Shown: positions 1 to 14,630 of the stretch, one piece after another
How positions within the stretch are numbered: position 1 is the stretch's first letter
Layout: every line of letters starts with the position of its first letter
NCBI RefSeq assembly: GCF_002549775.1
Contig: NZ_NMTR01000006.1
Coordinates: 1 to 64,000 of the forward strand
DNA: 64,000 nt
Source: Faecalibacterium langellae
Lineage (GTDB): Bacteria > Bacillota > Clostridia > Oscillospirales > Ruminococcaceae
Reading direction: 5' to 3'
Notes under the pieces: model-generated
What the model was told of the DNA's origin: nothing
Seen by the model: the letters and a program-made list of their open reading frames with translations, nothing else
Database searches by the model: none
Translations under genes and position numbers: made by a program

Positions 1-185
1 GTGCATAATTGTGTGATTTCCAAATAGTAAGAAGCAGGGTTTGGGGCAGGCACGCCCCAACAAGAAGCTGTCCCAAAGGGGCAAGAATTTTCAAGAATTG
101 AAAATTTGTGGCCACGGGACGATTCTTGCTCTCACCTTTTTCGCTGCGTTTCGCAATTTTCACATTTCAATCTGCTCGCAGATTG

Positions 186-214
186 TTGACAAGCTGCGCT
201 TGACCCGATACTAT
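186..214 (+). promoter_or_regulatory. sigma-A type promoter of the left-end recombinase
   Basis: A TTGACA -35 box (186-191) and a TACTAT -10 box (209-214) are separated by 17 bases. They sit about 37 bases upstream of the recombinase start codon, with an AAGGAGG ribosome site in between. The 185 bases before it hold no gene I can support. Confidence 0.6.
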
Positions 215-250
215 AAAGGCAAGTCGAATACGCGCCAAGGAGGTGCAACC

Positions 251-1882
251 ATGACCGCCGTGATCTACGCCCGCTATTCATCCGACAGCCAGCGTGAAGC
301 GTCCATTGAGGGACAGCTGCGCGACTGCAAGGACTACGCCGAGAAGAACGGCATCACCGTGGTCGGCACCTACATTGACCGTGCCTACTCTGCCAAAACG
401 GATGACCGCCCGGACTTTCAGCGGATGATTAAGGACAGCGCGAAGAAAATCTTCGATGTGGTTCTGGTCTGGAAGCTGGACCGCTTTGCCCGGAACCGAT
501 TCGATGCCGTGAACTACAAGTACCAGCTGGAAAAGAACAGTGTCCATCTGGTGTCTGCTATGGAACCCATCTCGCAGGGGCCTGAAGGCATTATGGTGGA
601 GAGTATGCTGATTGGCATGGCGGAATACTATTCCGCCGAACTCGCCCTGAAAGTGGCGCGCGGTGAGCGCGAAAACGCCCTCCAGTGCAAGTACAACGGC
701 GGTGTGGTGCCGCTGGGCTTCACCATTGGTAAGGAGGACAGGCTGTACCATATCGACCCGGAAACAGCTCCCATCGTGCAGGAGATCTTCAGCCGGTATG
801 CCGACGGCGAACCGGCGGAGAAGATCGCAGCCTCCCTGAATGAGCGCGGTCTGCGTACCCGCACCGGGAAGCCGTTCGTAAAGAACAGCTTCTTCCAGAT
901 CTTCCGCAACCGCCGCTACATCGGCGAATACCGCTACAAGGACATTGTGACGCCGGGCGGCGTTCCGGCTATTGTTGACCAGGATTTGTTCGACCGGGTG
1001 CAGCAGCGTTTCGAGCAGAACAGGATTGCCCACGGTCGGCCTGCAAAAGAGGATGTGAGCTATCTGCTGACCACCAAGCTGTTCTGTGGCAAGTGCGGCA
1101 CCCTGATGGGCGGTGAAAGCGGCACCAGCCACATGGGAAACACCTACTATTACTACAAGTGCGGCAACGCCAAACGCCACGGCAAGGCGCATTGCGACCT
1201 GAAAGCCATCCGCAAGGAGCCGCTGGAACGGTTCGTGGTGGACACCGCCATTAAGGTGATTTTCAGCGATGAAATCATCGAACAGCTAATAGATTTGGTC
1301 ATGGAAGCCCAGCAGAAGGAGAACACCCGATTGCCTATCCTGAAAGACCAGCTCAGGGACACAGAGAAGCGGCTGGCAAATCTTCTGGAAGCCATTGAAC
1401 AGGGCATCCTGACCCCGACCACCAAGCAGCGTTTGGACGAGCTGGAAGCCCGGAAAGAAGCCCTGAACACCAGCATTCTGGAAGAAGAGCTGAAAAAGCC
1501 CGTCCTGACCCGTGAGTGGATTCGGTTCTGGCTTGAAAAATTCCGCAAGGGTGACGTGGGCAGCACGGAACACCAGCGGCAGATCATTGATACCTTTGTC
1601 AACTCGGTCTACGTCTTTGATGACCGGGTCGTACTCAATTTCAACTTCACGGATGATGCCAAAACGGTCACCCGTGAGGAAGTGTTGGGTTCGAGTGCCG
1701 TGGACAATGCTCCACCAAATGGAAAGCCGTTTACCTTTTCAGGTAAGCGGCTTTTTTGCTGCAAAGCAGGCGGAAATGAAAGTGCTAAATTGAGTCAAGC
1801 AGGAGAGCTTTGCTTGCGTATGGGAAAACCCGTTATAAAAACAGGATCCCCAGCAGAAGTGCACCCTGCGCAGCAGTGTTGA
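251..1882 (+). CDS. large serine recombinase of an integrated element
   Basis: This is a site-specific recombinase that cuts and rejoins DNA through a serine-DNA link. The start is placed at the ATG 8 bases after AAGGAGG (543 residues). The resolvase fold opens with MTAVIYARYSS, which puts the catalytic serine at residue 10. It is followed by the recombinase domain (about 170-270), a zinc ribbon with CGKCG and a later C/H pair (about 280-330), and a coiled-coil arm (about 350-430). It is a paralogue of the recombinase at 35987-37918. The conserved protein ends near residue 490; the last ~50 residues look like chance coding that runs into the 3' end of the convergent gene at 1833, so the attachment site probably lies in this 3' end. 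It belongs to an element whose other genes lie left of the window. Confidence 0.9.
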   Translation: MTAVIYARYSSDSQREASIEGQLRDCKDYAEKNGITVVGTYIDRAYSAKTDDRPDFQRMIKDSAKKIFDVVLVWKLDRFARNRFDAVNYKYQLEKNSVHLVSAMEPISQGPEGIMVESMLIGMAEYYSAELALKVARGERENALQCKYNGGVVPLGFTIGKEDRLYHIDPETAPIVQEIFSRYADGEPAEKIAASLNERGLRTRTGKPFVKNSFFQIFRNRRYIGEYRYKDIVTPGGVPAIVDQDLFDRVQQRFEQNRIAHGRPAKEDVSYLLTTKLFCGKCGTLMGGESGTSHMGNTYYYYKCGNAKRHGKAHCDLKAIRKEPLERFVVDTAIKVIFSDEIIEQLIDLVMEAQQKENTRLPILKDQLRDTEKRLANLLEAIEQGILTPTTKQRLDELEARKEALNTSILEEELKKPVLTREWIRFWLEKFRKGDVGSTEHQRQIIDTFVNSVYVFDDRVVLNFNFTDDAKTVTREEVLGSSAVDNAPPNGKPFTFSGKRLFCCKAGGNESAKLSQAGELCLRMGKPVIKTGSPAEVHPAQQC

Positions 1883-2336
1883 TAAGCTGTGCGGTCCAGT
1901 TGGCTTTGAGCGAGTTGTCGAACCGGTTCTTTCGGTACCAGCTCATGCAGCCCATGCCGCACAACCACAGCAGAAAAAAGATCACACTGGGGAAATGGGT
2001 CAGCCGCGCAAGCACGCTGCTCCAGCGGATGGTACGGAGATGCAGCACAAGGGAAAGCAGGATCAGCACAAAACCGCTGATTTGACAGGGGATAAAGTAA
2101 CGGTTGAGCCAGGGAACGTTCTGCTTGCGCAGGCTGAGCAGCAGCTTCCACAGAACTTTTCCGCAGGAAGCCAGAACGATCACAGCTGCACCGAGGCAAA
2201 ACAGGATGCTTGCAAAACGGCCTGCGATTAGTACCATGCTGCAGGAAAAGAACAGAACCGGGAGCGCATCCACAAGAGCCAGTGACAGGGTGAAATCTTC
2301 GGGAATGAAATTGCGGTTTTTCATGCGATCAGCCAT
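1833..2336 (-). CDS. small integral membrane protein, unknown function
   Basis: The predicted protein has 167 residues and about five hydrophobic segments, with no catalytic motif I recognise. The start is the ATG at 2336 (MADRMKNRN), which overlaps the end of the upstream DUF1295-type reading frame by 16 bases and suggests translational coupling. Its last 50 bases overlap, on the opposite strand, the tail of the left-end serine recombinase. This indicates that the recombinase frame has run into host DNA rather than that both ends are functional. Function is unknown; a membrane partner of the neighbouring methyltransferase-like protein is only a guess from position. Confidence 0.6.
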   Translation of the reverse strand: MADRMKNRNFIPEDFTLSLALVDALPVLFFSCSMVLIAGRFASILFCLGAAVIVLASCGKVLWKLLLSLRKQNVPWLNRYFIPCQISGFVLILLSLVLHLRTIRWSSVLARLTHFPSVIFFLLWLCGMGCMSWYRKNRFDNSLKANWTAQLINTAAQGALLLGILFL

Positions 2337-3085
2337 TTGTACTTCTCCACGCTGTACAGAGGAATGAAGGGCAGCAGGATGGGAACGGTCTTTACATACT
2401 GCTGATACTCCGGGTCTTTGCCGTAGTTCTTGTTCTGGCGGATCTCCAGACGGCGTGCGCCGCTGAACATGACGAACACGATGCCGACATAGCCGATCAG
2501 AGCCATGATCCACTGACCGATCCCCTGCAGAGCGCCAATGCCGGACACCAGCACGCCGGTCCAGAACACCATTTCACCCAGGTAGTTGGGGCAGCGCACA
2601 AGGCGATAAAGGCCGGTATCCACAAAGCGGTGGGAATTTTTCTTTTTAGCAGCATTTTTCTGCAGGTCAGCAGCAGATTCCAACACCATGCCGCACAGCA
2701 TGATGACTGCACCGATGTAGCTTGCCGTACCGGCGCCGGTACCATTTGCAAGGCGGTAGAACACCGGCGTCACCTGCGTGACATACAGGCAGGCGCAGCT
2801 GAGCCAGATGGCGCACTTGGCACCAAAGGAAACGGTCTTGCCTTCCTTGATCTCACCGGTCATGTTCTTTTTATAAGAGGAACTCTTGATCTCACGGTAG
2901 GCCAGGTATCCACCCAGGCGGCAGCCGTAAAGGATGAACAGTACGCAGCACAGCCGGATCGCTCCACTTGCCGCCGTGCTTCTTCTGACAGGCGAAACTC
3001 CAGATCTTCGATGACTTTTGGCATAAGGTCTCCTTTTTGTGAACGTGTTCATAAAAAGAACAACGCTTTTTCGGGGGATTGTCAA
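2321..3085 (-). pseudogene. N-terminally truncated DUF1295 / isoprenylcysteine methyltransferase-like protein
   Basis: From about residue 41 onward the frame looks like the DUF1295 steroid-reductase/ICMT-like membrane family: GCRLGGYLAYREIKSSSYKK, a run of hydrophobic helices, then TGLYRLVRCPNYLGEMVFW and a C-terminal NKNYGKDPEYQQY region. The family normally has one or two more N-terminal helices. Here the sequence before residue 41 is basic, low in structure and covered in another frame by the start of a different gene (2860-3024). The simplest reading is a deletion that removed the 5' part of this gene. It could still be translated from an internal start such as MTGEIKEG, but a working enzyme is doubtful. 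Confidence 0.55.
2860..3024 (-). pseudogene. 5' remnant of a TetR-type regulator gene
   Basis: An AAGGAG ribosome site precedes ATG at 3024 and the frame reads MPKVIEDLEFRLSEEARRQ, resembling the opening helix of TetR-family repressors. After about 24 residues the frame loses sense and stops at 2860, while the DUF1295-type frame becomes meaningful. A short inverted repeat, TGAAC-GT-GTTCA (3040-3051), just upstream of the ribosome site would suit a TetR operator. I read this as the surviving start of a repressor gene fused out of frame to a neighbour by deletion. The family assignment rests on a short stretch. Confidence 0.4.
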
Positions 3086-3103
3086 TGTGCTTTGCGGGCA
3101 GAC

Positions 3104-3137
3104 ATAAAAAGCCCCTGAGTCTTTCGGCTCAGAGGCT
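3104..3137 (-). terminator. terminator of the Hxs operon
   Basis: A 10-bp stem (AGCCTCTGAG with CTCAGGGGCT, one mismatch) with a small loop is followed on the minus strand by a T run (3105-3109). It lies about 75 bases past the stop codon of the His-Xaa-Ser repeat gene. Confidence 0.75.
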
Positions 3138-3209
3138 GCGGAGCAGGATTGTTATGTCTGGATGAAATTTGATTACATAAGGCAGATGAACAAGGTATGG
3201 GCCGGATGA

Positions 3210-3716
3210 TTAGATTTGGGTAAGAGCATCATCGACAGTCACCGCCGCTGCAACACCATTGGTGGACCCGGATGCCGTATCAGGCAATGCAGGAATTGCA
3301 GGGACCGGGAGCGTGCCCATGGCAGGAGTATCATGGGTCTGCTGCGGCACAAGCACTTCTGGATAAGTAGGTGTCGTCACGGCCGCGCTCGTATTGCTGT
3401 GTGCGGCACTGACATTGCTGTGACTGCTATGGTTACTATGGGTGCTGCTGCTATGGCTGCTATGGCCGCTGCCGCTCTGATGGCTTTGATGACTCTGGTG
3501 GCTCACATGACTTCCATGACCGGAACCATGGCTGCTGGAGCGGTGTGAACTATGGGAACTGTGCGACCGGTGCCCGGCCTCTGCATCCAAAGCGAAAAGA
3601 ACACTCATGATAACGGCCAAAGAGCCTACCATCAGCAGTTTGTTCCGGGTGATATTGCCTTCTTCTTCATACAAATAATTCTGAATAGATTTTTTGATCT
3701 CAGGAAACTGTGCCAT
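3210..3716 (-). CDS. hxsA: His-Xaa-Ser repeat precursor (HxsA-like)
   Basis: This is the likely substrate of the operon, 168 residues. Residues 1-26 are a polar leader, 27-42 a hydrophobic segment and 49-105 a dense run of His-Xaa-Ser triplets (HRS, HSS, HGS, HVS, HQS repeated), followed by a Pro/Thr/Ala-rich tail. In known Hxs systems the radical SAM pair HxsB/HxsC with HxsD modifies a protein carrying such repeats. Two export routes are visible: a class III (prepilin-like) site after Gly20 in YEEEGNITRNK with the hydrophobic stretch right behind it, and a signal peptidase I type AEA site at residues 45-47. It is the last gene of the operon, 12 bases after the MORN gene, with AAAGGAG before the ATG. 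The normal +5 Glu of prepilins is absent. Confidence 0.8.
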   Translation of the reverse strand: MAQFPEIKKSIQNYLYEEEGNITRNKLLMVGSLAVIMSVLFALDAEAGHRSHSSHSSHRSSSHGSGHGSHVSHQSHQSHQSGSGHSSHSSSTHSNHSSHSNVSAAHSNTSAAVTTPTYPEVLVPQQTHDTPAMGTLPVPAIPALPDTASGSTNGVAAAVTVDDALTQI

Positions 3717-3728
3717 GATCTTTCTCCT

Positions 3729-4577
3729 TTATGCTTTCACAATGCTGACGCAGGCACCATTTTGCCAAGTCGTTTTGTACTTCACGCCGTTAACGGTATA
3801 GGTCAGTTCGCCGTTCGGAACACCATTTTCAAAATGACCGGTTAAGATTTGCCCCGTTGCAAAAACATAAGAGCCGTCGCACATTTTGTCAGACTTAAAG
3901 GTTCCGGTATAGGTATCGCCATTCTGAAAGACATATTTGCCGTTTACTTTCTGACCATTGCTCACAGAGCCCGCATAGGAATCTCCATTCGGATAGCCGA
4001 TAGCTGCATTTCCGGAAAATTCACCGGCCTTCGTCAGATCACCGGAATAGGTGACATCTACTGTTTTCTTTGCATCAAGATGGTCCGGGTAAGTAAACGT
4101 CAAATTCGCCTGATTCTTTTCGTCCGCAAGCGTCACAGTACCACGAAAGTTGCTGCCTTTGACCGAATAAGCAGCGTTTTGGAACGCATTACCCGCAAAA
4201 GAACCGGTCCAGGTCGTTCCATTTGGCGCGGTGACCACACCATCGCCGTTGATTTGGTCGTTTGCCCATGCACCCGCATAGCTGGTTCCGTCTGCCCACA
4301 CAAACGTACCATTGCCAGAACGCTTTCCATCCTGAAGATTTCCCTCATAGGTGCCGACATCGGGAAAATCCAGATGGGCCATGCCTTCAGCCAACCCGTT
4401 CTGAAGGTCAACGGATGCAACGCTTACTTCCGAGAATGCTGCTGCCGAACTGGCTGATGCCGTTGAAACCTCCGGTGTTTTGCCAAAGCTGCCGATCAGC
4501 CCAACCGCCAGAAAACCGATCAGTACCTTTTTGGCAGTGCCGGATTTTTTCTTTTGTCTTTGCGTACTCTTTTTCAT
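3729..4577 (-). CDS. MORN-repeat exported protein of the Hxs operon
   Basis: The protein has 282 residues with a lysine-rich N-terminus and a single hydrophobic segment (about 18-31), then a low-complexity linker and MORN-type repeats from about residue 72 onward (GTYEGNLQDGKRSGNGTFVW, SYAGAWANDQINGDG, DTYTGTFKSDKMCDG and similar). MORN repeats are beta hairpins that bind lipids or proteins; the hydrophobic segment suggests that they face outside the membrane. The gene lies between hxsB and the repeat precursor in the same orientation with gaps of 20 and 12 bases, so it is part of the operon. A scaffold or docking partner for the modified His-Xaa-Ser protein is possible but is inference. Confidence 0.75.
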   Translation of the reverse strand: MKKSTQRQKKKSGTAKKVLIGFLAVGLIGSFGKTPEVSTASASSAAAFSEVSVASVDLQNGLAEGMAHLDFPDVGTYEGNLQDGKRSGNGTFVWADGTSYAGAWANDQINGDGVVTAPNGTTWTGSFAGNAFQNAAYSVKGSNFRGTVTLADEKNQANLTFTYPDHLDAKKTVDVTYSGDLTKAGEFSGNAAIGYPNGDSYAGSVSNGQKVNGKYVFQNGDTYTGTFKSDKMCDGSYVFATGQILTGHFENGVPNGELTYTVNGVKYKTTWQNGACVSIVKA

Positions 4578-4597
4578 GATACGACCTCCTCAATGTT

Positions 4598-5998
4598 TTA
4601 TCGAACCCAGCGGTCCAATATGTTGTCGATTTCAGGATTCTTTTGATTCAGCAGCCCAAACACGGCATCCAACATTCCTTTATAAGTCTGACATTTGTAA
4701 TGGTTCGGTATCTTAGAGAACACGTCACCATCCAATGCGTAGTTCAGCACCGGGCAGGTCCCACAGTAGGGCTGGTATACGCAGTCACTGCAGGTGGGAG
4801 CTGCTTCCAATGTAGATGCAACACAGCAGGCCTTACAGACATTGCTGTTCATCAAAGAATCATAGGTGTCCTCAACCGTTCCCAGTTGAAATGCACGATC
4901 TCCCATTTCGGCAAGCATCCGACCCTCATCACAGGTGTAAACGTTGCCATCATAGTAATAGGCCATCTGTCCAACGGCTGCACCGCAGGGCGAACGCAGT
5001 TCCATGTAGTTCTTTCCCTGTCCAAGCAGGATTTTAGACAAGAAGGTCGCGGCGTGCCCTTCCGACAGGAAATAGCCCTGCCGGTTGATCTCCACAACAT
5101 AGGCCAGCGCTTTTTGATAGAATGCAATAAACTCGTCCGCAGTATAGCCAACCTGATTCCAGTCTGCATTTGCAAAGCCCAACGGCGTCAACGGGCGAAG
5201 GAAGATGCTGTGCAGCCCAAGCGCACGGTATTCGTCCACCAACTCTTTCCAGTGGTTCAGGCTGTACCGTGTTGTGGTTTCGATCGCGCCAACACATACG
5301 TCCGCTTCTTGCAGCCGCTTCAATCCACGAATCGTACCCTCATAGGTTCCGCCACCCTGACAGAGCGGGCGATTCGTATTGTGCAAACGCATCGGGCCAT
5401 CAATGGATGTTGAAACGCTGACATGATGCTCCTGAAAAAAGCGCACCATTTCTTCTGTGAGCAGATTCAGGTTGCTGACCAGGGAAAACTCCACTTTCTT
5501 TCTCGTTTCTGCGGCTTTTTTCTCGGCTTCGGATACGATGACTTGAAGCGTATCAAAATTCAAAAGTGGCTCACCGCCCTGAAACTCAATGGACAGGAAC
5601 GGTTCTGGGGATTGAAACGCCAGATTCACAGCCTTCTTTGCGGTTTCTGCGCTCATCAGCCCTTTCTTATGGGAAGCAGTGGACTGTGCCTGGCAGTAAA
5701 TACATCTTGCGTTGCACGCATTTGTCAGAACAAAAATATGCAAGCTGGTGGCATCCATCAAATAGCCTTTTGCTTCTCGGAAGGCACGGCTGTGACGCTC
5801 CAGATAAACATCCGCATCGTCCTCATAGAGAAAGCCCTTTTCCAAAAGCTCGGCATAAGATGGGTCTGTGCTGTCAAGTCTGTGCAGCAGCATCGCTTGA
5901 AAGGTTGGAAGTGATACAAACGCCCATCGCCCCAGATCATTCGTCAGCAGGATCTGCTGATCGTTCCATTTTTTGAAATTAAAATAGGTATACTTCAT
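4598..5998 (-). CDS. hxsB: radical SAM maturase HxsB
   Basis: This 466-residue enzyme has the radical SAM motif CNARCIYC (Cys95, Cys99, Cys102) for the first [4Fe-4S] cluster, the FQGGEPLLNF glycine motif after it, and a C-terminal SPASM-type cysteine set (CKACC, then CSDC, CGTC around 390-420) for auxiliary clusters. The N-terminal region before the cluster (YFNFKKWND, LLTNDLGRW) is typical of HxsB. It should act in the cytoplasm on the His-Xaa-Ser precursor together with HxsC and HxsD. The start lies 3 bases after the hxsC stop codon, which implies tight coupling. The chemistry of the Hxs modification is not established from sequence. Confidence 0.88.
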   Translation of the reverse strand: MKYTYFNFKKWNDQQILLTNDLGRWAFVSLPTFQAMLLHRLDSTDPSYAELLEKGFLYEDDADVYLERHSRAFREAKGYLMDATSLHIFVLTNACNARCIYCQAQSTASHKKGLMSAETAKKAVNLAFQSPEPFLSIEFQGGEPLLNFDTLQVIVSEAEKKAAETRKKVEFSLVSNLNLLTEEMVRFFQEHHVSVSTSIDGPMRLHNTNRPLCQGGGTYEGTIRGLKRLQEADVCVGAIETTTRYSLNHWKELVDEYRALGLHSIFLRPLTPLGFANADWNQVGYTADEFIAFYQKALAYVVEINRQGYFLSEGHAATFLSKILLGQGKNYMELRSPCGAAVGQMAYYYDGNVYTCDEGRMLAEMGDRAFQLGTVEDTYDSLMNSNVCKACCVASTLEAAPTCSDCVYQPYCGTCPVLNYALDGDVFSKIPNHYKCQTYKGMLDAVFGLLNQKNPEIDNILDRWVR

Positions 5999-6001
5999 TT
6001 T

Positions 6002-7126
6002 TTACTCCGCAATCGGTCGGGCAACGAAACACCCGGTCGAGATCGTGCTGTTGAACACACCGTAACAGATGCTTTTGACCTTGCAGGATTCACACACGGG
6101 TGTGTAGCGAATCTTGTAATCTGAAATACTGTCACGGCATAACGTCCAATATTTATGCTTCACTGCACAGAGCGGGAAATTGTAAAGGCCGATGTCGATG
6201 CCGGCTGAAACCAGCTTCTCGATTCCATCTTCACACGCCGCAGCCGCCTGCAGATAGTCGATCCACACCTGCTCACGGTTCTTAATTGCATTGCCGCACA
6301 TCTCCAGTGCGATAAAATTCACGACGGTGATACGCGGCAGGGTCAGAAGCAACTCCACAATATTGGAAATGTCCCTGTTGTTCAACTTGGAAACCACGAT
6401 GCGGATTTCGATCCGCATTGTGCCTTGGGCCAGTGTTCTCAATCCCTGGATCGTCTGTGCAAAAGAGCCTTGCGCTTGCGTTATCGCATCGTGCCGTTCA
6501 GCATTCGAGCCATGGATCGGGATCGCAATCTGATCCTGGGCAATCAAAATCCGGTTGAACGCCTGCGCATAAGGGGCAACGGAAAAAGTCCGCCCGTTGG
6601 TCAGGATCAGAATTTCAGCACTGGGGCATTGTTCTTTTGCATATTGGACCACTTCCAAAAGCCCTTGTTTCAGCAGGGTGGGTTCACCGCCGGTGATCGT
6701 AATATGCGGGATGTCGGTGCCGAAATATCGGAGCTGCATTTTGAGTTCATCCACAGGTGTTAGCTGTGCATGGCGGCGAGAGCTTTCGCTCACAGGGCAC
6801 ATCACACAGTTCGTGTTACAGGCCAGGCCCGTTACGATGGCTGCATCCCCCGCATCGGCCTGATAGAACCGATAGCAGATGCCGGTGTTCTCGAAAGAAA
6901 TTGCATCGGCATCCTGCAATTCTTTCCAGCGCAGCCACTCTGCATCCGAAATGGAATAGCGTTTCTCGAAGGGGTATAATGTGACTGTCTGGCTTTCCTG
7001 CTCCACATAAGCAACATTCAGCCCGATTTGCAAGTCACTCTCAATTTCTTTCCGAGCAAGGCGGACCCGTGCAAGCAAGTACACTGCGGCCGGCTGTGAG
7101 CGGTAAGCCGAAAGGTAAAATGTCAT
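6002..7126 (-). CDS. hxsC: radical SAM maturase HxsC
   Basis: This is the second radical SAM enzyme of the pair, 374 residues. An N-terminal domain of about 95 residues precedes CNTNCVMC (Cys103, Cys107, Cys110), then TITGGEPTL, the SAM-binding glycine motif. A C-terminal cysteine group (CAVKHKYWTLC, CESCKVKSIC) could hold one extra cluster. Length and layout fit HxsC of His-Xaa-Ser systems. It follows the A24 peptidase gene by 3 bases and precedes hxsB by 3 bases. Two radical SAM enzymes side by side with a histidine/serine repeat substrate is the defining arrangement of the system. Confidence 0.86.
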   Translation of the reverse strand: MTFYLSAYRSQPAAVYLLARVRLARKEIESDLQIGLNVAYVEQESQTVTLYPFEKRYSISDAEWLRWKELQDADAISFENTGICYRFYQADAGDAAIVTGLACNTNCVMCPVSESSRRHAQLTPVDELKMQLRYFGTDIPHITITGGEPTLLKQGLLEVVQYAKEQCPSAEILILTNGRTFSVAPYAQAFNRILIAQDQIAIPIHGSNAERHDAITQAQGSFAQTIQGLRTLAQGTMRIEIRIVVSKLNNRDISNIVELLLTLPRITVVNFIALEMCGNAIKNREQVWIDYLQAAAACEDGIEKLVSAGIDIGLYNFPLCAVKHKYWTLCRDSISDYKIRYTPVCESCKVKSICYGVFNSTISTGCFVARPIAE

Positions 7127-7129
7127 GGT

Positions 7130-8188
7130 TCAGATTCCCCACGATCCCAAAGTTGTTACAATATGATAGGCCGCAAATAAGATAACGCCCACCGCAATGA
7201 AGGAAGCAAACGGTATTTTGCGAACAGAAACCACCGTGGCTTTGCCGTATTTGGAGTCTTTCCAGCGCCGGACGGCTGCAGCTTCCTCCTCGGTCAGACG
7301 GCTTCGCATATCTTCATAGCTGATTTGCGGCAGTCCTTTTACCTTGGAGGGCGCAAAGCAGACGACCGTGGACCTGCTTAAGATCATTCCGGCCTTGACG
7401 TCTTCGGTCGGGACCGATTCATAAACGTACTTTCCTGCGATCCATGTTGTCCACATCACAAGGAGCACCAGCAGGTAGGTCTGTACCATCCGAAGAACTC
7501 CAGCAGCGGCAATGGTGTTTCTTGTAAGAAGCAGCACTGCGGCATCAAGCACCGCGCAGCTGCCGACCAGAACTTTGGAATGATAGACCGGCTTTTCTCG
7601 AAGAATTGTAATCAGGAAGTAGCTGATCAGCGAAAGCAGGAGAACGTTGTTCTCGACGAAAGAAGGGAGTGCAATGGAAAGAACACTGTTCCATGCATAT
7701 AAAACAACAAACGCATGAAGATAGGATTTGATTGCAGCCCATGCGCCTGCTTTGGTCACGGTCGGGAGTTTGACCGTGTGGCGGTGGAAGTCCAGATAGA
7801 CGGCTTCCCCGATCAGATAGAGATACCCGATGCTGAACACCAGAAGGAACAGATACGCCGCCGGAACGATCGTGTCTGTGTTTGCCCAGAACAGCCGCCC
7901 CGGCAAAAGCGAGATCAGGACGATCATCAACTTGCTGTCCCCGGCTGACCAGATGTGGACAAAATAGAAGCCGATCGAAAGCAACGCCGAAATCAGCAGA
8001 TTCAAAGCGGTGATGCCAAGACAGTCCTGACAGTACACAGCATAGTAGATGACGTTCAAGACGAGTCCCGCCGTAAACGCAATGATAAGGTGTTTGTTTT
8101 TGATCTGCCCATGCCGCAGATCCGTCCAGACGCTCAAGCCGCACAGTATAAATGCACAGCATAGGAGGAATATCTCACATAAAATCAT
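7130..8188 (-). CDS. A24-type prepilin peptidase within the Hxs operon
   Basis: The protein has 352 residues and an integral membrane N-terminal half. Two aspartates typical of aspartic prepilin peptidases are visible: Asp23 in TDLRHGQIKN and Asp84 in SAGDSKLM, corresponding to the conserved D and the GxGD-like motif of the TadV/CpaA type. The long C-terminal half adds more membrane segments and a cytosolic stretch (VVCFAPSKVKGLPQIS) with no family I recognise. No pilin, pilus ATPase or platform gene is nearby, so the likely client is the HxsA-like precursor, which has a Gly20 site before a hydrophobic helix. Its ATG overlaps the upstream stop codon (ATGA). Confidence 0.75.
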   Translation of the reverse strand: MILCEIFLLCCAFILCGLSVWTDLRHGQIKNKHLIIAFTAGLVLNVIYYAVYCQDCLGITALNLLISALLSIGFYFVHIWSAGDSKLMIVLISLLPGRLFWANTDTIVPAAYLFLLVFSIGYLYLIGEAVYLDFHRHTVKLPTVTKAGAWAAIKSYLHAFVVLYAWNSVLSIALPSFVENNVLLLSLISYFLITILREKPVYHSKVLVGSCAVLDAAVLLLTRNTIAAAGVLRMVQTYLLVLLVMWTTWIAGKYVYESVPTEDVKAGMILSRSTVVCFAPSKVKGLPQISYEDMRSRLTEEEAAAVRRWKDSKYGKATVVSVRKIPFASFIAVGVILFAAYHIVTTLGSWGI

Positions 8189-8400
8189 AGTGCTACGCTC
8201 GCAAGGTCGATCAGATAATTGAAAAATTCATGCGCGGTGAGTGCTGTATCGTATTGGCAGTTCTGAAAGGTCAGCACCCAGTTTTCCGCAGCGCGCTCCA
8301 CATGAATCTTTGCCAGCCCGCAGTACGCCTGGATTGCAGACCGAAGAACATCCTCCGAAAAAATTTCAGAACTGACCAAAAGTGTATTCTTATTTTTCAT
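8185..8400 (-). CDS. small HxsD-neighbour protein, 71 residues
   Basis: Begins MKNKNTLLVSSEIFSEDVL and continues with a short alpha/beta pattern (SAIQAYCGLAKIHVER, then WVLTFQNC). The start overlaps the end of the HxsD-like gene by 11 bases and the end overlaps the peptidase start by 4 bases. The compact size and the place beside radical SAM enzymes are reminiscent of peptide-recognition (PqqD-like) partners, and it may be a diverged second HxsD. I cannot assign it to a named family. Confidence 0.6.
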   Translation of the reverse strand: MKNKNTLLVSSEIFSEDVLRSAIQAYCGLAKIHVERAAENWVLTFQNCQYDTALTAHEFFNYLIDLASVAL

Positions 8401-8764
8401 CGAACCAGTCCTTTGCAATCGCATCCAGCTCATCCAGCGCGTCCTCTGTCATGGGGCTTTCAGCCACATCGGAGGATGCACCTTCATCTACCATCGTAGA
8501 GGACAGCGCACGAGCCACGAGCAGCTCCCGCAGAACCGTGGTTTCTTTGGAAACGGTCTGGTGGATCATCTGTGCCAGTAGCTCGTTCTTGAACGCATTT
8601 CCCAGTTTTTCTTTCTCAAACGGTGTGCCGTCTTTTGCGGTAAAGTCTACAAAGAAACAACCACCTTCCACGCCAAGGTAAACGTATGCCTTGTCTGTAA
8701 AATGGTATGCCGCTTTCAAGAGTGCCTCTTTGGAGTAGAGTGTTTTATCGTATCGGATCCTCAT
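8390..8764 (-). CDS. hxsD: HxsD-like protein, first gene of the Hxs operon
   Basis: 124 residues. The N-terminal part (YSKEALLKAAYHFTDKAYVYL, then GCFFVDFTAKDG) and the following helix (LLAQMIHQTVSKETTVLREL) fit the small HxsD family that accompanies HxsB and HxsC. The C-terminal 40 residues are acidic (DELDAIAKDWFDEK) and may be an extension. It is the promoter-proximal gene: upstream, on the minus strand, an AT-rich stretch (8775-8795) with TAATATTATAA could supply a -10 box, but I see no convincing -35. HxsD probably assists the radical SAM enzymes in binding the precursor; this is inferred from the system, not shown. Confidence 0.7.
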   Translation of the reverse strand: MRIRYDKTLYSKEALLKAAYHFTDKAYVYLGVEGGCFFVDFTAKDGTPFEKEKLGNAFKNELLAQMIHQTVSKETTVLRELLVARALSSTMVDEGASSDVAESPMTEDALDELDAIAKDWFDEK

Positions 8765-8973
8765 AATACCCTCACCAAACTTATAATATTACATCCTAAT
8801 TCTAACGCTTTGCGGATGCCGTTTCACTTACCATTTTGTGTCAGAATGGATAGAACTCCGACACATTGGTGACGGTATGAAGGTCCGAAAAAAAGGGGAC
8901 GAAACTTCTGTATCGACTCGTTTCTCCCGATGGTTAAAGGTTTTTGCATTCTGTTTTGCGGGAAAAGACAACA

Positions 8974-9016
8974 CAAAAGGCAGGGTATCACCGTGGCGGT
9001 GACAACCTGCCTTTTT
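8974..9016 (-). terminator. terminator of the fatty acid operon
   Basis: AAAGGCAGG and CCTGCCTTT form the outer stem, and a perfect inner TCACCG/CGGTGA hairpin caps it. T runs flank both sides, so it can stop transcription in both directions. It lies 57 bases past the fabZ stop. The rest of 8765-9072 holds only the AT-rich hxs upstream region and no gene. Confidence 0.8.
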
Positions 9017-9072
9017 GTATGATTGGGCGCGATGCGGCGCATTTTACGGTGGCGGCTGGGGGACAGGGAACG

Positions 9073-9549
9073 TTAAGTCTCTGCGTCCGCTTCCGTCAGC
9101 ACAAAGGTCAGCTCGGCGGTGGCGACGCATTTGCCGTCCACATAAGCCGACGCTTTGCCGATGCCCACCGGGCCGCGCTGTTCCACCAGCTCGCAGTGGA
9201 GGGTGAGTACATCGCCGGGGATGACCTGTTTGCGGAAGCGGGCGTTTTTGATGCCGCCGAAAAGGGCCAGCCTGCCTTTGTTTTCGGGCAGGCTCAGCGC
9301 CGCGACGGCCCCGGTCTGGGCCAGTGCTTCCAGAATGAGCACTCCGGGCATGACCGGCTGGCCGGGGAAGTGGCCGTTAAAAAATTCCTCGTTGCGGGAG
9401 ACACACTTGCGGCCAATGGCCCACTGCCCCGGTTCGTAATCCAGAATGCGGTCCACGAGGGCAAAGGGGTAGCGGTGTGGCAAAATCTCCGCGATCTGCA
9501 CACTGCTCAGGGTGTTGGCGTTTTCACGCACGGTACGGGGCTCTGCCAT
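9073..9549 (-). CDS. fabZ: 3-hydroxyacyl-ACP dehydratase FabZ
   Basis: Dehydrates (3R)-hydroxyacyl-ACP to trans-2-enoyl-ACP in the elongation cycle. 158 residues, a usual length, in a hot-dog fold with the signature HRYPF and the active-site segment [17 protein letters not shown], giving His60 and Glu74 as the catalytic pair. It is the last gene of the fab operon, 3 bases after fabF, and is followed by a strong terminator. No FabA or FabN partner is seen in the window, so how unsaturated chains are made cannot be told here. Confidence 0.95.
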
Positions 9550-9552
9550 GGG

Positions 9553-10791
9553 TCAGCCCTCCCATCTGCGCAGGGCGATGCAGGCGTTGTGGCCGCCAAA
9601 GCCCAGGCTGTTGCTCAGCGCATAGGTCATGGCCTGTGCGCGGCCGGTGTTCGGGACATAATCGAGGTCACACTCCGGGTCCGGCTGCTGGTAGTGGATG
9701 GTGGGCGGCGCAAACTGGTCCCGCAGGGCCAGAGCCGTAAACACTGCCTCGATGCCGCCCGCACCGCCCAGCAGATGGCCGGTCATGCTCTTGGTGCTGA
9801 CGACCGTCAGCTGCTTTGCGTGTTCCCCGAACACGGCATGGATGGCGGCGGTCTCACAGGCATCGTTCATGTGAGTGCCGGTGCCGTGGGCGTTGATGTG
9901 ATCTACCTGCTCCGGCGTGATGCCGGCATCGGCCAGCGTCAGCTTCATGCAGTCAATAGCTCCCGCGCCGCCGGGAGCCGGTGCGGTGAAGTGGTAGGCG
10001 TCGCAGTTGGCACCGTAGCCCACCACCTCGGCGTAGATGTGTGCACCGCGGGCGCGGGCATGCTCCAGTTCTTCCAGTACCAGCACGCCGCTGCCCTCGC
10101 CCATGACGAAACCGCCGCGCCGCGCGTCAAAGGGCAGGCTGGCGGCGTCCGGGTCGGCGGCGGTGGAAAGCGCCTTCATGCTGGTGAAGCCGCCGATGCC
10201 CAAGGGGCTGATGCAGCTTTCCGCGCCGCCGCAGACCATGGCCGTCTCGTAGCCGTCGCGGATGCGGTGGAAGGCGTCGCCCACGGCATTGGTGCCGCCC
10301 GCGCAGGCCGTGACCGGGCAGGTGCACATGCCCTTCAGGCCAAAGCGGATGGCCACCTGTGCCGCCGCCATGTTGGCAATGGACATGGGCACAAAGTAGG
10401 GGCTGACCTTCTCCATGCCCTTTTCTTCGCCCCGGGTGTGCTGCTCCTCAATGGTGGGCAGGCCGCCGATGCCGCTGGACAGGATGACGCCGATGCTTTT
10501 TGCTTCCGCTTCGGTGTCCAGGCCGCTGTCTGCAAGGGCCTCGGCGGCAGCGCCCAGTGCCAGCAGGGTGAAGCGTGCCATCTTGCGGACTTCCTTTTTG
10601 TCCACCACGGTCTCGGGGTCAAAATCCTTTACCTCACCGGCCAGCTTGCACTTGAAGTCGGTGGTGTCGAACTGGGTAATGGGCCCGATGCCGCATTGGC
10701 CGGCCTTGGCGGCGGCCCAGCTTTCGGAAACGTTATTGCCCAGCGGGTTCACGGTGCCGAGGCCGGTGATGACGACTCTGCGTTTTTCCAT
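9553..10791 (-). CDS. fabF: 3-oxoacyl-ACP synthase II FabF
   Basis: Elongating ketosynthase that condenses malonyl-ACP with acyl-ACP. 412 residues from MEKRRVVITG; upstream in-frame codons lack family similarity, and a GGAG-type ribosome site lies before this ATG. The thiolase-fold triad is present: Cys163 in VTACAGG, then His in AHGTGTHMND and His in SMTGHLLGGAGG. It follows fabG by 14 bases and precedes fabZ by 3. Transcription is with the rest of the fab operon from the promoter before acpP. Confidence 0.96.
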   Translation of the reverse strand: MEKRRVVITGLGTVNPLGNNVSESWAAAKAGQCGIGPITQFDTTDFKCKLAGEVKDFDPETVVDKKEVRKMARFTLLALGAAAEALADSGLDTEAEAKSIGVILSSGIGGLPTIEEQHTRGEEKGMEKVSPYFVPMSIANMAAAQVAIRFGLKGMCTCPVTACAGGTNAVGDAFHRIRDGYETAMVCGGAESCISPLGIGGFTSMKALSTAADPDAASLPFDARRGGFVMGEGSGVLVLEELEHARARGAHIYAEVVGYGANCDAYHFTAPAPGGAGAIDCMKLTLADAGITPEQVDHINAHGTGTHMNDACETAAIHAVFGEHAKQLTVVSTKSMTGHLLGGAGGIEAVFTALALRDQFAPPTIHYQQPDPECDLDYVPNTGRAQAMTYALSNSLGFGGHNACIALRRWEG

Positions 10792-10805
10792 GCGAAATTC
10801 TCCTT

Positions 10806-11555
10806 TTACATTGCCATGCCGCCGTCTGCACAGAGCACCTGCCCGGTGAGATAGCTGCTTTGTTCTGCGGCAAAGAACGCCACCGCGTTTGCCACATCTT
10901 CCGGCCTGCCTGCGCGGCCTGCCGGGATGCCCTTTGCCATTTCGGCACGGACAGCTTCCGGCAGGGCGGCGGTCATATCGGTCTCGATAAAGCCCGGGGC
11001 CACCGCGTTCACGGTCACGTTCCGGCTGGCCAGCTCCCGGGCAAGGCTCTTGGTCAGGCCGATCAGCCCTGCCTTGCTGGCGGCATAATTTGCCTGACCC
11101 GCGTTGCCCCGCAGGGCCACCACACTGCTCAGATTGATGATGCGGCCCCACCGCTGACGCACCATGCGGCGGGCGGCTTCCTTGCAGCAGAGGAACGCGC
11201 CCTTCAGGTTCGCGTTCAGCACGGCGTCAAAGTCCGCTTCGGTCATGCGCAGGATGAGATTATCCCGGGTGATGCCCGCGTTGTTTACCAAAATATCCAC
11301 CTGGCCAAAGGTGTTTACCGCCTGCTCAAACAGCGCTTTGCAGCCCTCGGCAGTGGAGACATCGGCCTGCACGGCCACGGCATTTGCGCCCGCAGCGCTG
11401 CACAGGGCAACCGTTTCAGCGGCAGCGGCTTCGCCGTGGCAGTAGTTCACCACAACATTGCAGCCCTGCCTGGCAAGCTGTACGCACACCGCCCGTCCAA
11501 TGCCGCGGCTGCCGCCGGTGACGACGGCAGTGCGGATGATCTTTTCTTCACTCAT
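10806..11555 (-). CDS. fabG: 3-oxoacyl-ACP reductase FabG
   Basis: NADPH-dependent reductase of the elongation cycle, a short-chain dehydrogenase of 249 residues from the ATG at 11555. The start was chosen because GGAAGG lies at the right distance; an upstream ATG at 11570 would overlap this ribosome site. The nucleotide motif is TGGSRGIG (13-20), the NNAG motif is at 91-94 and the catalytic set is Ser144, Tyr157 and Lys161. Its start overlaps the fabD stop by 4 bases. Confidence 0.95.
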   Translation of the reverse strand: MSEEKIIRTAVVTGGSRGIGRAVCVQLARQGCNVVVNYCHGEAAAAETVALCSAAGANAVAVQADVSTAEGCKALFEQAVNTFGQVDILVNNAGITRDNLILRMTEADFDAVLNANLKGAFLCCKEAARRMVRQRWGRIINLSSVVALRGNAGQANYAASKAGLIGLTKSLARELASRNVTVNAVAPGFIETDMTAALPEAVRAEMAKGIPAGRAGRPEDVANAVAFFAAEQSSYLTGQVLCADGGMAM

Positions 11556-12484
11556 TGTTCTTCCTTCCATGCGGTCAGCACGATCTCCAGTTCTGCCGGA
11601 GTTTCCACGGCGGCGCAGGCCACGCCGGGCAGGGTCTTTTTCACAAAACCGCTCAGGGCGCTGCCGGGGCCGACTTCCAGAATGTGGTCCACGCCCAGAT
11701 CACCCAGACGACGCAGGGTGTCTTCCATATACACACTGCTCTGCACCTGCTTCACCAGCAGGGCCGGGATGGTGTCCGCGTCGGCCTTTTCGCGGCCCAG
11801 ACAGTTGAACAGCACCGGGATCTGCATCTCACTGAACCGATCGGTCTTGAACCGTTCGGCGAGGGCATCTCCGGCGGGGGCCATCAGCCGGGTGTGGAAG
11901 GGGCCGCTCACTTTCAGCGGAAGGCAGCGGCGGGCGCCGGCTTCCTTTGCCAGCGCGGCAGCCTGCTCCACAGCGGCTTTCTCGCCGCCGATGACCAGCT
12001 GCCCCGGGCAGTTGTAGTTGCAGATCTGCACACAGCCCGTCTCTGCTGCCTGTTCGCAACAAGCGGACAGCTTTTCTCTGTCCAGCCCCAGTACGGCGGT
12101 CATGCCGCAGTCAAGGCCTTTTGCAGCCTCAGCCATGGCCTTGCCCCGGAAGGCAGTCAGCTCAATGGCCTGCTTGGCGGTGAACACCCCGGCTGCCTGC
12201 AGCGCGGAGTATTCGCCCAGCGAAAGCCCTGCCAGATATGCGGGCTTTACGCCCTTTTCGGCCAGCACGGCGGTCACGCCGCAGGCAAAAGCCACCATGC
12301 AGGGCTGAGTGTATTCGGTCTGGTTCAGAACGCCGTCCGGGTCTTCGAAGCAGACGCGGTGCAGGTCAAAATCCAGCGCCGCGCTATCGAATGCTGCCCG
12401 GAAGGCGGGAGATTCTTCGTAAAATTCTTTGCCCATGCCGGGGTGCTGGGCACCCTGACCGGCGTATAAAACGGCAAGTTTCAT
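11552..12484 (-). CDS. fabD: malonyl-CoA:ACP transacylase FabD
   Basis: Moves malonyl groups from CoA to acyl carrier protein. 310 residues beginning MKLAVLYAGQGAQHPGMG. The active serine is Ser88 in GLSLGEYSAL, where the usual GHSxG is GLSLG, so the residue before the serine is Leu rather than His. The partner His is in SGPFHTRLM. Start and stop codons overlap those of its neighbours (ATGA with the upstream gene, 4 bases with fabG). The GLSLG variant occurs in some clostridial FabD proteins and does not suggest inactivation. Confidence 0.94.
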   Translation of the reverse strand: MKLAVLYAGQGAQHPGMGKEFYEESPAFRAAFDSAALDFDLHRVCFEDPDGVLNQTEYTQPCMVAFACGVTAVLAEKGVKPAYLAGLSLGEYSALQAAGVFTAKQAIELTAFRGKAMAEAAKGLDCGMTAVLGLDREKLSACCEQAAETGCVQICNYNCPGQLVIGGEKAAVEQAAALAKEAGARRCLPLKVSGPFHTRLMAPAGDALAERFKTDRFSEMQIPVLFNCLGREKADADTIPALLVKQVQSSVYMEDTLRRLGDLGVDHILEVGPGSALSGFVKKTLPGVACAAVETPAELEIVLTAWKEEQ

Positions 12485-13548
12485 TGGTTTTGCCTCCATT
12501 CGGTCACAAGTTCGTCCATCAGTTCGCGGACGGTGTACATCCGGCTGAGCCTGCCCACATTGGCCCCGCAGAAGAAAAGCCCTTCCTCCACATTGCCCTT
12601 CACGGCTTCGATGAGCGCGTGGGTGATGCAATAGGGCACTCTGGCGGGGTCACAGGTCTTCAGGCAGCGGGCGCAGTGCTTTGGCGGGAAGCGCGTTCCC
12701 TCGGCCAGTGCCTGCACCAGCGGGGTGTTCAGCGCCCGGCCCGGCATCCCCACCGGGCTATGGATGATGCGCACATCCTCGGGCTTTGCGTGCAGCAGAA
12801 CGTCCTTGTAGGTTTGGGATGCATCGCACTCGTAAGTGGGGATAAAGCGGGTGGCAAGCTGGACACCCGCCGCGCCCATCTTTGTAAAGTGGGCCATGTC
12901 GGCTCCGGTGTACACGCCGCCCGCCACGAACACGGGGATGGGGTGGCCGAACTGCACTTCAAAGGGCTGCACTTCGGCCAGAACCTCGGGCAGAATTTCG
13001 TCGAGGGTCTGGCATTTGTCTGCCAGTAGGTCGGCTTCGGCAAAGCCGAGATGTCCACCCGCTTTGCAGCCCTCAATGACCACAAAATCGGCGGTGCGGC
13101 CAAACTCCTTGGCCCAGCGGCGCAGGATGAGCTTTGCGGCCCGCCCGCTGGAAACGATGGGCGCAATGGCCACTTCCGGCGTGTTTACAAGGCCGGGCAG
13201 TTCCAGCGGCAGGCCCGCGCCGGACACCACCGCATCCACGCCCGCTTCTACGGCGGTGCGGATGGCGGCGGCGTAGTCCTGCGTGGCGACCATGGCGTTG
13301 ATGGCTACCATGCCTGCGCCTTTGGCGATCGCTTTTGCTTTTTGGATCTCCGCAGCCAGCGCGCGGTGGTTGGCGCTGACCGGGTCGCGGGCAAAATCCG
13401 GCTCCCGGTAGCCTGCATCGGCGGTGGAGATGCACCCCATGCCGCCGCAGGCCGCCACGGCCCCGGCCAGCCCGCCGAGGGAAACGCCCACGCCCATGCC
13501 GCCCTGCAGGATGGGCACCTGCAGCTGCTTTTGGCCGAGGGTCAGCAT
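12481..13548 (-). CDS. FMN-dependent nitronate monooxygenase / FabK-like protein
   Basis: 355 residues in a TIM-barrel flavoprotein layout: PILQGGMGVGVSLGGLAGAVA at the start, then GCKAGGHLGF and VFVAGGVYTG as FMN/phosphate-binding segments. It resembles 2-nitropropane dioxygenase/nitronate monooxygenases and the enoyl-ACP reductase FabK, but has a longer C-terminus with a cysteine cluster (CARCLKTC, later YC and FFC). It lies directly after fabK with a 7-base overlap and before fabD with an ATGA overlap. A role linked to fatty acid synthesis is likely from position; the reaction is not known. It may be a second enoyl reductase or a detoxifying enzyme. Confidence 0.75.
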   Translation of the reverse strand: MLTLGQKQLQVPILQGGMGVGVSLGGLAGAVAACGGMGCISTADAGYREPDFARDPVSANHRALAAEIQKAKAIAKGAGMVAINAMVATQDYAAAIRTAVEAGVDAVVSGAGLPLELPGLVNTPEVAIAPIVSSGRAAKLILRRWAKEFGRTADFVVIEGCKAGGHLGFAEADLLADKCQTLDEILPEVLAEVQPFEVQFGHPIPVFVAGGVYTGADMAHFTKMGAAGVQLATRFIPTYECDASQTYKDVLLHAKPEDVRIIHSPVGMPGRALNTPLVQALAEGTRFPPKHCARCLKTCDPARVPYCITHALIEAVKGNVEEGLFFCGANVGRLSRMYTVRELMDELVTEWRQNQ

Positions 13549-14477
13549 TCGGCGTTCAGCGCGGCGATGCGCTGCCTCCCGCTTTCGTACAGGTCGGCAA
13601 GGATGTCGGCTACCGGGCGTACCTCGTGCAGCATGCCCGCCACCTGACCGGCCATCAGGCTGCCGGTGGCGGTATCGCCCTCAAACACGGCCCGGCGCAG
13701 ACTGCCGAGGGTGAATTTTTCCAGCTCCATCTTGTCGGCACCGGCCTTTTCCTGCCGGACATACTCACGGCTCATGCGGTTTTTCAGCACGCGGACGGGC
13801 GAGCCGCCGATGCGGCCGGTGACGATGGTGTCACTGTCCTTGGCCTTGAGCAGGGCGGCTTTGTAGTTTTCGTGGATGGGGCATTCTTCGCTCACCAGCA
13901 GGCAGGTGCCCACCTGTACGCCGCAGGCACCCAGGGCCAGCGCGGCCGCCATCTGACGGCCATCCGCAATGCCGCCCGCCGCGATGACGGGCACGCTGAC
14001 CGCATCCACTACCTGCGGCACCAGCGCCATGGTGGTCATTTCGCCCACATGGCCGCCGCTCTCGGTGCCCTCGGCAATGACGGCGTCGATGCCCAGCGGT
14101 TCCAGATGCTTTGCCAGCACAGCAGCGGCCACCACCGGGATGACTTTGATGCCTGCAGCCTTCCACATGGGAACATACTTGCCGGGGTTGCCCGCGCCGG
14201 TGGTGACGACGGGCACGCCTTCTTCCACGACGATCTTTGCAAATTCATCTGCCTGCGGGTGCATGAGCATGATGTTCACGCCGAAAGGCTTGTTTGTCAA
14301 TGCTTTGCAGCGGCGGATGTTCTGGCGCAGGGTGTCGGCGTTCATGCCGCCAGCCCCGATGATGCCGAGAGCTCCCGCGTTGGAGCAGGCGGCGGCAAAC
14401 TCGCCGGTGGCGATGTTCGCCATGCCGCCCTGAATGATGGGGTATCTGGTCCCTAAAATTTCATTTAAAAGTTTCAT
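13542..14477 (-). CDS. fabK: enoyl-ACP reductase II FabK
   Basis: FMN and NAD(P)H-dependent reductase that completes each elongation round. 311 residues; YPIIQGGMANIATGEFAAA at the N-terminus, VITTGAG-like VVTTGAGNPG, AEGTESGGHVGE and IAAGGIADGRQ are the FMN-binding and catalytic segments usual for FabK. The C-terminal MAGQVAGMLHE motif also fits. It is separated from fabH by 153 bases containing a 121-bp hairpin repeat, the only gap of this size inside the operon. No fabI or fabL is seen, so FabK is the likely main enoyl reductase. Confidence 0.92.
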   Translation of the reverse strand: MKLLNEILGTRYPIIQGGMANIATGEFAAACSNAGALGIIGAGGMNADTLRQNIRRCKALTNKPFGVNIMLMHPQADEFAKIVVEEGVPVVTTGAGNPGKYVPMWKAAGIKVIPVVAAAVLAKHLEPLGIDAVIAEGTESGGHVGEMTTMALVPQVVDAVSVPVIAAGGIADGRQMAAALALGACGVQVGTCLLVSEECPIHENYKAALLKAKDSDTIVTGRIGGSPVRVLKNRMSREYVRQEKAGADKMELEKFTLGSLRRAVFEGDTATGSLMAGQVAGMLHEVRPVADILADLYESGRQRIAALNAEC

Positions 14478-14504
14478 AAAAGTGACTCTTATTGTTCAAC
14501 GTCC

Positions 14505-14625
14505 TCGCCCTCTCAGGCGCTGTCGCGCCAGCTCTCCCAAGGGGAGAGCCAAGAACGTTGCGGTAAGGCTCTTGCCTCTCCCTTTGGGAGAGGTGGCACG
14601 GCGTAAGCCGTGACGGAGAGGGCGA
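14505..14625. repeat. dispersed hairpin repeat, copy 1
   Basis: A 121-base unit bounded by TCGCCCTCTC and its inverse GAGAGGGCGA, with inner inverted segments (CTCTCCCAAGGGGAGAG, then CTCTCCCTTTGGGAGAG). It lies between fabH and fabK inside the operon. Similar units are at 20734-20855 and 30904-30996, and a fragment is at about 34214. It looks like a MITE or REP-like element with no coding capacity. Confidence 0.8.
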
Positions 14626-14630
14626 GCCTG

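Follow-up and report, generated by a model that had tools for sequence, protein, structure and literature searches.

His-Xaa-Ser (Hxs) systems were reportedly predicted by Haft and Basu as sets in which a repeat precursor, HxsA or HxsA2, accompanies HxsB, HxsC, and HxsD. In the literature searched, Hxs is still a predicted system to which no product or role has been assigned, and the published mentions found are made in passing. PMC9062424 cites Haft and Basu for the classical His-Xaa-Ser system. The DNA analyzed here (the window) is a 64,000-nucleotide stretch of Faecalibacterium langellae, contig NZ_NMTR01000006.1, and it contains a seven-gene Hxs operon that also encodes a prepilin-type peptidase and a MORN-repeat protein. 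The operon is not described in the literature searched, a scope with subscription titles mostly outside it. The operon is real and conserved, and its HxsA3-peptidase variant is new relative to that literature. We moderately favor reading it as an operon that covers the whole maturation and display of a His-Xaa-Ser surface protein and belongs to a peptidase-bearing HxsA3 subtype. All seven genes lie on the minus strand (8764 to 3210) and start with ATG:

8390..8764, minus strand: hxsD, 124 aa; TIGR03976 72.6 bits (cut-off 50)
8185..8400, minus strand: HxsD-like paralogue, 71 aa; NF038315 62 bits (cut-off 41; frame scanned from 8433); 11-base overlap with hxsD
7130..8188, minus strand: A24/GxGD-type membrane aspartyl peptidase, 352 aa; catalytic candidates D23 and D84
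6002..7126, minus strand: hxsC, radical S-adenosylmethionine (SAM) enzyme, 374 aa; TIGR03977 277.2 bits (cut-off 267.9)
4598..5998, minus strand: hxsB, radical SAM enzyme with SPASM-like cysteines, 466 aa; TIGR03978 547.3 bits (cut-off 370)
3729..4577, minus strand: MORN-repeat protein with N-terminal hydrophobic segment, 282 aa; PF02493 52.2 bits (cut-off 22.5), E = 3.3e-14
3210..3716, minus strand: hxsA3 precursor, 168 aa; NF038309 114.2 bits (cut-off 65)
3110..3137, minus strand: intrinsic-terminator-like stem with T tail, from terminator scan and fold

The intergenic gaps in operon order are -11, -4, +3, +3, +20, and +12 bases, and the tightly spaced operon described in an earlier note on this DNA is present. 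HxsB and HxsC, the radical SAM pair, and HxsD and the His-Xaa-Ser repeat precursor all exceed their NCBIfam cut-offs, which places the locus among the Hxs systems with the core that the earlier note recognized. The 71-residue partner is a second HxsD-family protein (NF038315), the repeat protein belongs to the subtype that NCBI names HxsA3, and the MORN assignment is confirmed by the PF02493 score. The closing terminator stood less well. A stem with a T tail lies at 3137-3110, but the scan gave 10 such sites versus 6.8 (standard deviation 2.6) in shuffles, and the stem folds only slightly better than shuffled sequence (z = -1.56; 13/200 shuffles equally good). Promoter-like sites in a scan of the window were no more common than chance (6 versus 6.0 expected).

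The invariant HxsB cysteines in a four-sequence alignment that includes the window protein are C95, C99, and C102, followed by C338, C356, C403, C406, C412, C415, and C436; the second set (C338-C436) is tentatively SPASM-like. The AlphaFold model of HxsD has a pLDDT (predicted local distance difference test) score of 87.5 and a beta-alpha-beta-beta-alpha-alpha topology. The leader-binding domain of the RRE type (RiPP recognition element; RiPP, ribosomally synthesized and post-translationally modified peptide) is a PqqD-like winged helix. The HxsD match lists contain weak ferredoxin-like, Pcc1-like, and other weak matches, and the RRE is not among them. Judged from these families, HxsB and HxsC would modify the tandem His-Xaa-Ser triads in the cytoplasm, assisted by HxsD and its small paralogue, and our guess is that His-Ser side-chain crosslinks are the most likely chemistry. 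A defense system was considered and rejected; the PADLOC output is limited to a radical-SAM resemblance between viperin models and HxsB and HxsC.

Related loci were gathered with the four-sequence HxsB alignment. The best 80 of 503 relatives, ranked by likeness to the window HxsB, were combined with the window and three further loci, and two duplicates were removed (L030, a copy of L008, and L053, a copy of L009). The resulting 82 loci were scored with purpose-built profiles, and L036, a near-copy of L039, was omitted from alignments. The peptidase is present in 73 of the 82 loci; L072, L073, L079, L080, L083, L085, L086, L089, and L090 have no local copy. A reverse search of the window's order with the peptidase alignment (E <= 1e-10) found it in 3 of 388 genomes, and these are the same three that carry HxsB, so the peptidase in this order accompanies Hxs genes and nothing else. 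HxsB is rare there (3/394 genomes, own included; E <= 1e-80), as in a sample of the phylum (2/398, own included), and none was found in four other genomes of the genus. The link between the peptidase and the Hxs core thus holds from both directions. Conserved co-occurrence of all seven families, the check suggested in the earlier note, was borne out for the peptidase and less so for its companions: 59 of the 73 peptidase loci have a MORN-profile match and 51 an HxsD-like match, with three more (L011, L042, and L060) ending inside the peptidase gene. HxsD is present without an HxsD-like match in 18 loci. Gene order is variable, and an alternative order places the MORN gene and hxsA3 ahead of hxsD. 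The gene set recurs in dozens of bacteria from gut and rumen. Most loci are from Clostridia, with single records titled Synergistales, Spirochaetales, Chloroflexi, and Eggerthellaceae, and many are metagenome bins.

Eleven plasmid loci with classical precursors were drawn from 323 plasmid records with an HxsB match, and neither the peptidase nor the leader motif described below occurs in any of them (0/11; stretches of 11 to 13 kb). Intact hxs genes lacking the peptidase, which the earlier note would have counted against its proposal, therefore do occur in classical HxsA/HxsA2 systems, but this is untrue of the HxsA3 subtype.

The A24 assignment of the peptidase is stronger for the family than for the window protein, which scores 22.1 bits against PF01478, under the 26.5-bit cut-off (25.5 bits in the genome search). 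PF01478 is matched at E <= 0.01 by 62 of 68 aligned relatives, the window protein included, and the fold is FlaK-like. D23 and G83-D84 are invariant in all 68, and the second Asp lies in a GxGD-like motif as in A24 enzymes. The FlaK sequence match is weak (E = 0.0055), and both peptidase Asp residues align with Asp residues of FlaK. The NCBIfam FlaK family matches 5/68 aligned peptidases and EppA 2/68 (E <= 0.01); the window peptidase matches none of the NCBIfam families. A C-terminal soluble domain is conserved across the family. The peptidase is the sole PF01478 match in its own genome at E <= 1, and a search of that genome gave no Flp match and no convincing pilus assembly ATPase. A pilus system was rejected there: the best PF00437 match (25.2 bits; cut-off 24.9) is in a frame with two internal TGA codons that by eye resembles the sporulation protein SpoIIIAA. 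An apparent A24-HxsC fusion in L059 was also discarded, since a stretch of N accounts for its long open frame.

The HxsA3 precursor consists of a prepilin-like leader (residues 1-20), a hydrophobic segment (approximately 27-46) ending in AxA, and a His-Xaa-Ser core from residue 49. Residues 47-168 contain 13 His-Xaa-Ser triads, whereas 20,000 shuffles gave a mean of 4.0 and a maximum of 10. The 17 His and 29 Ser in this 122-residue core would suit a plain His-rich metal-binding surface protein with the radical SAM genes acting elsewhere, an explanation we consider highly improbable. In the 63-row HxsA3 alignment, each of the first four triads has an invariant His and a Ser conserved at >=90%; a repeat precursor was found near HxsB, the only place it was sought, in 73/82 loci and 11/11 plasmid loci; and HRSHSS-type cores are common to HxsA, HxsA2, and HxsA3. 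The window precursor has no match to TIGR03979 (classical HxsA) at E <= 1 and only NF038309 at E <= 0.001. At this latter threshold, TIGR03979 does pick up 32 of the 63 precursors in the alignment. A conserved C-terminal HxsA3 motif first seen by eye was dropped, as a loose pattern for it fits merely 27/72.

The commonest leader form upstream of the hydrophobic segment is F-[LI]-x-[ED]-E-E-G-N-I-[PTS]-R-x-K. Position -1 is Gly in 60 and Ala in 2 of the 62 usable rows, the L087 row being excluded for its wrong start, and -2 to -4 are mostly acidic. Thirty Flp pilins compared in the same way have Gly at -1 in 30/30, Glu at -3 in 28/30, an acidic residue at -4 in 27/30, and an acidic residue at -2 in 19/30. 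HxsA3 thus shares the acidic residues and the -1 Gly of the Flp/Tad pilin (PF04964) leader. The Flp match of the HxsA3 profile covers just 13 columns and is weak (probability 29%), and it falls exactly on the cleavage site. The Flp Glu at +5 and Tyr at +6 are absent, and HxsA3 rows have mostly N/S/G at +5 and K/R at +6, as might be expected if the substrate is cut and left unassembled. The prepilin-like leader and the prepilin-peptidase-like enzyme are also what a pilin-like subunit polymerizing into a fiber would have; the replacement of E5-Y6, mostly by N/S/G and K, and the outcome of the Flp and assembly ATPase searches in the genome make such a fiber very unlikely. The fit of peptidase to leader implied by the earlier note is supported, on alignment grounds, by this predicted prepilin-like site. 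By comparison with prepilin peptidases, HxsA3 would be inserted through its hydrophobic segment, and the FlaK-like GxGD peptidase of the operon would remove the 20-residue leader at EEEG/N on the cytoplasmic face of the membrane, without pilus assembly.

The leader motif is present in 70/70 loci that have both a precursor and a local peptidase, with any residue allowed at +1 (L063 has the variant EEEGDIS). The totals are 74 with motif and peptidase, 12 with neither (the 11 plasmid loci and L086), and 1 intermediate. The L073 peptidase lies approximately 22 kb downstream in a contiguous cluster, and in the L085 and L090 genomes it is on other contigs, the L090 match being partial and at a contig end. 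The motif reads SEEG in precursors found in the L085 and L082 genomes. The leader is eroded where the protease was not found. No such peptidase was found in the genome of L086 (Myxococcota), and its leader has SEQQ where relatives have EEGK, the Gly and adjacent Glu being replaced and the F, L, other E, T, and R kept, as a single case. The intermediate is L079: no such peptidase was found in its genome, and its precursor has RTEG, with the G kept and the acidic run mostly lost, together with a twin-arginine-like stretch. Precursor searches gave no match in L072, L080, and L083 and only weak matches in L089. Twin-arginine-like leaders (SRRGF and TRRDF) occur in two Myxococcota precursors (L155 and L086 2704-3096), and the Hxs-type peptidase was not found in those genomes; the sequences suggest a change of export route.

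Some findings weigh against an operon-encoded leader cut followed by MORN-assisted display. A signal-peptidase-I-like AxA site ahead of the core is conserved as well. Some PF01478 protein occurs in 10/10 genomes searched, which leaves room for an ordinary prepilin peptidase in each of them, and absence of the peptidase is soft because many genomes are metagenome bins. There is no MORN-profile match in 14 of the 73 peptidase loci, a few of them incomplete or precursor-less.

The AxA site allows a different reading of the leader, in which HxsB/HxsD recognize EEEG-NI-R-K, the cut at AxA is made by ordinary signal peptidase I, and the A24 protein acts later on the leftover signal piece or elsewhere. 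Most of the 63 HxsA3 rows have AxA-like residues ahead of the core, 53/63 have a ruler-like spacing of 29 residues between the leader Gly and the first core His, and the motif is confined to one clade of the HxsB tree. Classical precursors sit with HxsB, HxsC, and HxsD yet lack the motif (11/11 plasmid loci), and the motif follows the peptidase, being kept in the 18 loci that have no HxsD-like match. The L086 leader, a single case, loses the Gly and Glu at the predicted cut and retains the rest. Recognition is thus an unlikely explanation, though one to be taken seriously; the AxA and leader cuts may also occur in succession. On the HxsB tree, the peptidase label changes four times by genome (reassigned for L073, L085, and L090) and five times by locus, versus 15.8 and 18.2 in shuffles. 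The label is clustered, so kinship accounts for part of the pattern but not all of it. L072 and L080 (Clostridia) have HxsB without HxsC, peptidase, or recognizable repeat precursor and are nested in a peptidase-bearing clade; their HxsB is perhaps repurposed.

Pfam confirms MORN repeats in 56 of 58 MORN-profile proteins (E <= 0.001), with L048 and L011 unconfirmed. An N-terminal hydrophobic segment is present in 42/59, counted from profile-chosen starts that are sometimes too short. MORN is fused to a wall-binding domain in four loci: CWB2 (L088), SLH (L016), and PG_binding_1 (L077 and L075). Of the 11 classical plasmid precursors, 9 were tested, and 5 of these carry PG_binding_1 themselves; the other four, three HxsA2 and one short Leptospira precursor, lack it. 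HxsA3 tails are longer without MORN (median 162 versus 99.5 residues). A hydrophobic C-terminal stretch occurs in 5/10 without MORN versus 4/58 with it, an exploratory comparison with a post hoc threshold and a doubtful L041 tail, and some MORN-less HxsA3 end, again in exploratory inspection, in a hydrophobic segment plus basic tail. Butyrivibrio-type HxsA3 in loci without a MORN match (L013, L012, L024, and L035) have C-terminal repeats of approximately 40 residues, and Pfam scans of three of them (L013, L024, and L035) gave no family above cut-off.

We read a common theme in these domain arrangements, in which the His-Xaa-Ser core would be brought to the wall by its own domain or by a MORN partner. 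Display on a MORN scaffold, as the earlier note had it, gains from the fused wall-binding domains, but a MORN match is not seen in every peptidase locus. From the fusions, the core would stay at the envelope, held or organized by a membrane-anchored or wall-bound MORN protein; MORN-less lineages have longer HxsA3 tails, some with apparent anchors of their own. A stiff, modified wall or surface polymer is our guess at the biological role. The pathway of modification, cleavage, and display proposed in the earlier note is thus partly supported, at the sequence level, by the peptidase-core link, the prepilin-like site, and the MORN wall fusions, with the amendment that MORN is not obligatory.

Retention at the wall also bears on whether the product is instead a secreted modified peptide, a RiPP-type signal or antimicrobial with the peptidase as leader protease. 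After its own family, HxsB scores best in NCBIfam against the RiPP maturase PapB (170 bits, where the PapB cut-off is 340), and the precursor does have a leader and a repeat core. Relatives' wall-binding domains indicate retention, however; the precursor is 168 aa long with a membrane segment, and no exporter or immunity gene was recognized among the operon genes. A secreted peptide is therefore improbable.

The leader code accompanies the protease in Bacillota, Omnitrophota, Elusimicrobiota, Patescibacteria, and Myxococcota; MORN was found only in Bacillota and a few other records. A broader interpretation, held tentatively, is that a prepilin-type GxGD protease and a Flp-like leader code were recruited for a radical-SAM-crosslinked non-pilin, with MORN as the scaffold that holds the resulting crosslinked wall polymer. 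In genomes of Portnoybacteria, Myxococcota, and Elusimicrobia, the Hxs-type peptidase is found among four to approximately eleven HxsC-profile matches, some of them weak, and HGS/HAS-repeat precursors occur in the same genomes. These are expanded His-Xaa-Ser clusters with many modifying enzymes:

L147, 3690-11326 and 18310-19215: expanded cluster
L073, 15463-21410: expanded cluster
L148, 4075-8680: expanded cluster
L082, 11565-19950: expanded cluster

Positions 1-6034 of L010 (G536), downstream of the operon, hold genes that by eye would encode a protein kinase, an FHA-type product, and a membrane protein, the last resembling one beside the operon in L009.

The G+C content is 47 to 55% in window positions 1-9000 and 62 to 67% in 9001-16000, the adjoining high-G+C side being a fatty-acid gene region. 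Two further genes lie on the low-G+C side:

41-1882: recombinase-like gene, large-serine type by eye
2321-3085, minus strand: DUF1295/isoprenylcysteine-methyltransferase-like gene, just beyond the terminator-like stem of the operon

The low G+C, the recombinase-like gene, and the patchy occurrence point to horizontal gain, and positions 1-9000 look, from composition and gene content, like an acquired island interrupted by the contig start. MT837156.1 (L095), labeled Bacteriophage sp., runs colinearly with window 9633-2686, which includes the entire operon, at 98.7% identity, with an extra match at 1963-1706. A phage origin was rejected; the record is read as bacterial carry-over, probably bacterial DNA in a virome.

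The closest known system, classical Hxs, has homologous HxsB, HxsC, and HxsD and an HRSHSS-type core. Its precursors differ in having a Sec-like signal without EEEG and often their own PG_binding domain, and no peptidase or MORN match occurs in the 11 plasmid stretches. NCBIfam names HxsA3 (NF038309) and HxsD-like (NF038315), and the window precursor and small partner pass the respective cut-offs, so parts of the gene set are already familiar to curators; these are names for single families, and the window peptidase has no NCBIfam family. RiPP leader proteases (PMC10885120) likewise place a protease within a radical-SAM peptide pathway. The main text of PMC10885120 does not mention prepilin, aspartic, aspartyl, or A24, and its one intramembrane mention is the M50 metalloprotease EpeP. 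The A24 peptidases of the FlaK, EppA, and Flp types share the GxGD-like motif, the paired Asp residues, the FlaK-like fold, and the leader Gly at -1; in contrast to them, the window enzyme has an extra C-terminal soluble domain and a genome without recognized pilus genes. Relative to all of these, the HxsA3 subtype brings its own processing and wall-attachment parts, and it makes precise predictions for the cut (after Gly20), for the core (from His49), for a protease that is its family's sole match in the genome, and for a location in the cell. If true, prepilin-type proteases would extend past pili and archaella to radical-SAM-modified proteins.

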